Part shown: positions 33,721-35,233 of the stretch, piece after piece | Numbering within the stretch: position 1 is the first letter of the stretch | How the letters are laid out: each line of letters starts with the position of its first letter | Assembly: GCA_021792095.1 (NCBI GenBank) | Contig: JAJYVH010000001.1 | Span: 573,324-637,323 of the forward strand | Direction: 5' to 3' | Length of the DNA: 64,000 bases | DNA from: Microcaldota archaeon | GTDB taxonomy: Archaea > Micrarchaeota > Micrarchaeia > Micrarchaeales > CABMGC01 | Made by a program: the position numbers and the translations under genes | The notes under the pieces: generated by a model | What the model saw: only the letters and a program-made list of their open reading frames with translations | What the model was told of the DNA's origin: nothing | The model's database searches: none

Positions 33721-35204
33721 ATACCAGTCGATGCTGCTGGAGGACACTGCTATCAGATTTCGACAGCCATGCAAGTTTGCTCACCGGCTTCGGTGGGCGG
33801 CGTACGGCTCAGTAACGCGTAGTCAATCTACCCCAAGGAGGGGCATAACGTTGGGAAACTGACGCTAATATCACATAGGCCAGGGGCTCTGGAATGGAAT
33901 CCTGGCCCAAAACGGGCGCGAATTGCAGCGCCGCGGCCTTGGGATGAGACTGCGTCGGATCAGGCAGATGGCGGGGTAACGGCCCACCATACCTTTGACC
34001 CGTAGGGGCTGTGGAAGCAGAAGCCCCGAGAAGGGCACTGAGACAAGGGCCCTAGCGCTACGGCGTGCAGCAGGCGCGAAAACTCTACAATGCGCGGAAG
34101 CGTGATAGGGGGAGTCTGAGTGGCGCACTTCGGTGCGCCTTTTGCCAAGTCCAAACAGCTTGGCGAATAAGTGCTGGGTAAGACCGGTGGCAGCCGCCAC
34201 GGTAATACCGGCGGCACGAGTGGTGTCCGCTATTATTGGGCTTAAAGGGCCAGTAGCCGGTCCGAACCGTCCCGGGTGAAATGTCAATGCTCAACATTGG
34301 CGCTGGCTCGGGATACCTTTGGGCTAGGGAGCGGGAGAGGTCAGGGGTACTTATGGGGTAGGGGTAAAATCCTGTAATCCTATAAGGACCACCGGTGGCG
34401 AAGGCGCCTGACCAGAACGCGTCCGACGGTGAGTGGCGAAGGCTAGGAGAACGAATCGGATTAGATACCCGAGTAGCCCTAGCAGTAAATGATGCAGACT
34501 CTGGTGTTGCGTCAGTTTTTGGCGCAGTACCGTAGGGAAACTGATAAGTCTGCCGCCTGGGGAGTACGGCCGCAAGGTTGAAACTTAAAGCAATTGGCGG
34601 GGGAGCACCACAAGGGGTGGATGCTGCGGTTTAATTGAATTCAACGTCAGAAATATTACCTGGAGCGACGGCAGGATGAAGGCCAGACTAAAGATCTTGC
34701 CTTACGAGCCGAGAGGTGGTGCATGGTGACCGTCAGCTCGTGCTGTGAAGTGTCCGGTTAAGTCCGGGAACGAGCGAGACCTTCGCTGACAGTTGCAACC
34801 GGTGCAGAGATGCGCCGGGCACTCTGTTGGGACCGCCTCCGTTTAAGGAGGAGGAAGGAGAAGGCGACGATACGTCAGTATGCCCCGAATCTCCAGGGCT
34901 ACACGCGGCATACAGAGGCTGCTACAATGGGCTGCGACCCCGAAAGGGGAAGCCAATCCCCCAAAAGCAGTCAAAGTTCGGATTGAGGGCTGGAACTCGC
35001 CCTCATGAAGCTGGAATCCCTAGTAATCGCTTGTCACTAACGAGCGGTGAATGTGTCCCCGCTCCTTGCACACACCGCCTGTCAAATCACCCAAGCGAGG
35101 TTTTAGTGAGGCAGTGCCGTATGGCGCTTTCGAACTAAAGTTTTGTGAGGAGGGTTAAGTCATAACAAGGTATCCGTAGGGGAACCTGCGGATAGATCAC
35201 CTCG
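33721..35204 (+). rRNA. rrs: 16S ribosomal RNA
   Basis: A full-length archaeal-type gene of about 1484 bases with no intron. Anchors in order: 5' CCAG...CTGG helix 1, the 530 loop at 34186-34210, ATTAGATACCC near 34460, TTAAAGCAATTGGCGGGGG at 34585, CACACCGCC near 35070 and AACAAGG..ATCACCTC at the 3' end. Several normally invariant bases differ, some with compensation: 18/917 and 1404/1497 (E. coli numbering). Others have none: C518G and G527A. The 3' end reads ATCACCTCG, so the usual CCUCC anti-Shine-Dalgarno core is incomplete. No 23S, 5S or tRNA follows. The ends are set by alignment to known 16S termini. Confidence 0.97.
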
Positions 35205-35233
35205 AATGTGTATCGTGCATCGCGCGGCTCGCG

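Follow-up and report, generated by a model that had tools for sequence, protein, structure and literature searches.

The window, by which we mean the entire 64,000-nucleotide stretch of DNA that we analysed, contains a 16S (SSU) rRNA gene (Table 1). RF01959, the covariance model for archaeal SSU rRNA, matches the gene across model positions 1-1478 of 1478 with a score of 1375.6 bits (the gathering score is 50), so this is a full-length archaeal SSU rRNA. A scan of the whole genome, a single contig of 771,545 bases, found just this one copy. The 16S gene (G000:C1:607044-608528) and the 23S gene (G000:C1:368578-371406) are unlinked in this genome. The genome belongs to an order of Micrarchaeota that has ARMAN-type members. 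The order has two families, f1 (which includes the window's genome) and f2. Within f2, we take genome G041 to be Ca. Mancarchaeum acidiphilum Mia14 (952,257 bp in one contig; PMC5498576) and genome G264 to be Ca. Micrarchaeum harzensis (989,838 bp; PMC8975820).

Positions within the gene are given in E. coli numbering, which was taken from the rrsB reference and cross-checked by a joint alignment. In rrsB, the 5' strand of the A-site stem reads C1404, G1405, U1406, C1407, and A1408, and the 3' strand reads A1492, A1493, G1494, U1495, C1496, and G1497.

Table 1. The 16S rRNA gene and its key bases, with positions in the window and bases named by E. coli numbering.
Feature	Position	Strand	Basis
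16S (SSU) rRNA gene, archaeal, single copy, intron-free	33721..35205	+	RF01959 match
G18, in the central pseudoknot; E. coli has C18	33733	+	sequence
C917, partner of G18	34591	+	sequence, alignment
U1404, the 5' base of the swapped pair; E. coli has C	35080	+	sequence, numbering, alignment
G1405, U1406 (35082), C1407, A1408 (35084), all kept in the window	35081..35084	+	sequence, alignment
U1491, A1492, A1493, G1494, U1495 (35160), C1496	35156..35161	+	sequence, alignment
A1497, the 3' base of the swapped pair; E. coli has G	35162	+	sequence, alignment

The sequence-only reading of this DNA held that a compensated change had turned the decoding-site pair C1404-G1497 into U1404-A1497. This is correct. 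Both bases can be read directly in the window, in CACACCGCC-T(35080)-GTCAAAT on the 5' strand of the stem and in GGTTAAGTC-A(35162)-TAACAAGG on the 3' strand, and the rrsB numbering and the alignment place them at 1404 and 1497. All 7 of the genus members that have the site, independent assemblies among them, have the same U-A pair. As that reading also said, the decoding adenines A1492 and A1493 (35157-35158) are kept, and so are the other decoding bases of archaeal SSU rRNA, A1408 and G1494. The window's gene departs from the universal consensus of the decoding site at C1404-G1497 and follows it at U1406·U1495. Positions 1405 and 1406 are kept in this gene and vary among its relatives: most relatives outside the window's genus have the C1406-G1495 pair that is known from trypanosomatids, where the window has U·U.

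We collected 16S sequences from across the order and tabulated the 101 that included both strands of the stem. The 1404-1497 pair is U-A in 82 of these and C-G in 19; the 1405-1496 pair is G-C in 81 and A-U in 20; and the 1406-1495 pair is C-G in 86, U·U in 14, and G-C in one. That is, the U·U mismatch has been replaced in 87 of 101 sequences, and most of the order, counted by genera, has C-G instead. When relatives lack the window's exact pattern, it is often U1406·U1495 itself that is altered in their 3' ends. If we write positions 1404-1406/1495-1497 as DNA triplets, the order has TGC/GCA (49 sequences), TAC/GTA (20), CGC/GCG (17), and the window's state of TGT/TCA (13/101). The canonical CGT/TCG is found only in G022 (1/101), and CGG/CCG is found only in G047 (1/101). 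None of the 101 sequences has a half-changed pair at 1404-1497, 1405-1496, or 1406-1495, so the two sides of each pair change together. C1402, C1403, C1407, A1408, A1492, A1493, and G1494 are invariant across the same 101 sequences, and U1498 is nearly so.

Since most of these relatives are represented by metagenome assemblies, sequencing or assembly errors, chimeras, or pseudogenes might be suspected, but there is almost no chance that they explain the change. The window's gene is single and full-length, both bases are shared by every genus member with the site, and unmatched pairs are absent from the order's sequences. Also, the closed genomes of the co-cultured relatives G041 and G264 show the same kind of change, with U1404-A1497, A1405-U1496, and C1406-G1495.

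Within the class, replacement of U1406·U1495 is limited to this order. Outside the order, the site pattern is matched by 80 class genomes. Every one of them has U1406·U1495, and 79 have C1404; the remaining genome (G096) has U-A. In a search aimed at position 1406, true sites with a base other than U were found only within the order, among the matches listed. The order forms one side of a fully supported branch in a 128-row tree, which we built without the columns in question. On this tree, which came from a quick search and has many shallow forks unresolved, the minimum number of changes is 13 for 1404-1497 (including the change in the outgroup genome G096), 7 for 1405-1496, and 5 for 1406-1495. 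So each pair has changed repeatedly, and 1404-1497 toggles even inside genera (for example, between G196 and G197 in genus g2).

E. coli and the outgroup share 417 positions. At 28 of them, 5% or more of the order's sequences differ, and the three pairs make up six of the 28. Among these shared positions, 6 of the 17 within 1400-1410 and 1490-1500 are variable, versus 22 of the 400 elsewhere (P = 0.0004, Fisher exact test; the pattern was already known when we chose the test, which makes this P value descriptive). The change is thus local to the decoding stem and is not a general acceleration.

The window's swap had been put forward as a paired change in a highly conserved part of the ribosome. 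The compensated change is real, but the U-A swap itself is not rare. We scanned 84,980 species for the exact U1404-A1497 double change with U1406·U1495 kept, and we found it in at least 86 contigs. (Only sites with exact flanks could match, which makes 86 a minimum, and the window's own genome was possibly left out by design.) These contigs include 23 from Thermoplasmatota, 11 from Micrarchaeota (NCBI's "Microcaldota"), and five from Nanohaloarchaea; the remainder are mostly from Dojkabacteria, Patescibacteria, and other bacterial candidate groups. Because the 86 contigs come from many phyla, the double change must have arisen repeatedly. The order-wide replacement of U1406·U1495 is a stronger fact than the window's own swap at 1404/1497.

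The swap is also not a clade marker in combination with the central pseudoknot pair 18/917, a co-occurrence that the sequence-only reading had named as something to check. G18 is present in every order member whose 5' end can be read around position 18, except for one truncated fragment in which the pattern matched elsewhere, and C917 is present in every order member that has position 917. Most outgroup members have C18-G917. (Beyond the order, G18-C917 occurs in two other families, f8 and f9.) Throughout the order 18/917 stays the same and 1404/1497 switches back and forth, so the two changes overlap in the window and do not define a single clade. In L257 (from G135) and L258 (from G137), which belong to other families, both 18-917 and 19-916 have been swapped to G-C (G18-G19 and C916-C917). 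In seven order sequences, including L010 (from G022), position 916 next to C917 is A, which would give a pseudoknot mismatch with C19.

Very probably, the window's gene is a functional 16S of the ARMAN type in which selection at the base of the A-site stem acts on Watson-Crick pairing and not on the identity of the bases. The 1404-1497 pair closes the A-site stem of helix 44 at its lower end, beside the P-site codon, and changing it from C-G to U-A would keep its geometry. The pairs 1404-1497, 1405-1496, and 1406-1495 are stacked, and in this order they seem to be held by complementarity rather than identity. The bases that read codon and anticodon (A1408, A1492, A1493, C1407-G1494, and U1498) are kept. 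If the three pairs serve as regular helical support, then compensated double changes would be tolerated and could spread by drift, presumably passing quickly through rare intermediates. Translation is probably normal and the changes are probably nearly neutral. Bacteria that were engineered to have C1406-G1495 are viable (PMC3101183). According to a passage in PMC3900107 that cites Cunningham 1993, disrupting C1404-G1497 in E. coli impaired the binding of tRNA to the P and A sites. That loss concerns a disrupted pair, not an intact U-A pair; in the literature that we searched, we found no report on how an intact U1404-A1497 pair performs.

We also think it likely that the entire order, including the co-cultured ARMAN archaea, translates with C-G (in one genus, G-C) in place of U1406·U1495 and with free covariation at 1404-1497 and 1405-1496, in which case the consensus is not universal in cells. 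Drift does not explain why the release came about in this order and not elsewhere in the class, so there may be room for an adaptive cause. For example, an altered stem might give resistance to decoding-site inhibitors (aminoglycosides or hygromycin-like compounds) from neighbours or hosts. M. smegmatis with C1406-G1495 is highly resistant to 4,6-aminoglycosides (PMC3101183), and the binding site of hygromycin B is lined by C1404, G1497, U1495, and C1496 (PMC5774723). However, A1408 and A1492/A1493 are kept; the window has the 1404-1497 change alone, and we found no report of resistance for that pair; and repeated switching between C-G and U-A suits drift better than steady drug pressure. We consider resistance to be quite an improbable cause.

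Another explanation involves rRNA modification. C1404 is a modified cytidine (N-330) in Haloferax, and the paper's account adds other archaea and many bacteria (PMC2584109). U1404 could not carry that cytidine modification, so loss of the enzyme might have freed position 1404. But this would leave 1405-1496 and 1406-1495 unexplained, and C1404 was kept or regained in 19 order members, which makes this explanation unlikely.

The stem might instead have changed to escape intron homing endonucleases that target it, with compensation on the other strand. Insertions in 16S are common in the class, and group I introns at SSU/1498 have been reported in Micrarchaeota (PMC6125680). But most of the insertions are near alignment position 1095, while those near 1364-1397 are limited, within the order, to just three members and are seen as well in outgroup genomes whose stem is normal; and the window's gene is intron-free. 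As the insertion sites do not track the stem change, we rejected this idea, which seems very improbable. Given the evidence here, none of drug pressure, intron homing, or loss of modification at 1404 accounts for all three pairs. The insertions near 1095 are about 500 bases long and are common in 16S genes of the order and the class (for instance L185, L175, and L262); further insertions lie near 793, 908, 1196, 1317, and 1364-1397, and the window's gene has none of these.

Changes elsewhere in the translation apparatus were considered and rejected as well. We do not propose a remodelled bridge from H69 of 23S to helix 44: the C in the loop UAACUCUGA is not peculiar to the order and is found in every class genome matched. 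(The H69 stem beside this loop is swapped, GUC...GAC, in the window's genome.) An alternative genetic code is not supported by the stop codons of the window's 47 long ORFs, which are TGA (27), TAG (14), and TAA (6). For uS12, we used phmmer to extract loci L273-L320 and the window's L321 (G000:C1:732388-732804). KQPHSG is the decoding-loop sequence of the window's genome and of 22 of 30 order loci, but also of 18 of 18 outgroup loci, so this loop does not account for the order's change; other order loci have KQPNSG (4) or KQPSSG (3). KQPHSG contrasts with the KQPNSG or KQPNSA of solved archaeal ribosomes. Within 16S, C1400, which adjoins the P-site codon, is U in seven order sequences (L026, L031, L185, L210, L214, and L219 in f2 and L021 in f1) and in the outgroup sequences L268 and L269. 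At position 972, close to the P site, 97 of 99 order sequences have U in place of a C that is conserved outside the order.

C1404, G1497, and U1406·U1495 are used to explain decoding, the positioning of mRNA in the P site, and the selectivity of aminoglycosides. U1406·U1495 has been published as a universal pair, and C1404 and G1497 have been called universally conserved (PMC3900107). In a partial search of the literature, we found no description of variation at 1404-1497, 1405-1496, or 1406-1495 in Micrarchaeota, and we do not claim priority. An order in which all three pairs have changed, and which has co-cultured members, provides natural compensated mutants for working out what the ribosome requires of its A-site stem. 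If our interpretation is true, fidelity and drug response could be compared across natural variants of the decoding site. The variation is relevant, too, to 16S primers and probes that target 1404-1406/1495-1497.

Compared to the canonical site of archaea and bacteria (C1404-G1497, G1405-C1496, and U1406·U1495), the window's gene has the same helix, the same reading adenines, C1407-G1494, and U1406·U1495, and it differs by U1404-A1497; the order at large also alters 1405-1496 and 1406-1495. The other species with U1404-A1497 resemble the window in having the same double change with U1406·U1495 kept, but they are scattered in other phyla, where they were matched only by the exact motif. A parallel for 1406-1495 is in the mitochondria of trypanosomatids (PMC3101183), whose C1406-G1495 pair is shared with 86 of the 101 order sequences and not with the window's gene. 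Unlike those mitochondria, the genetic code here is apparently standard, with TGA as the commonest stop codon of the long ORFs in the window. And the trypanosomatid case is an organelle, described as the exception, whereas this order consists of whole cells in which 1404-1497 and 1405-1496 are changing too.
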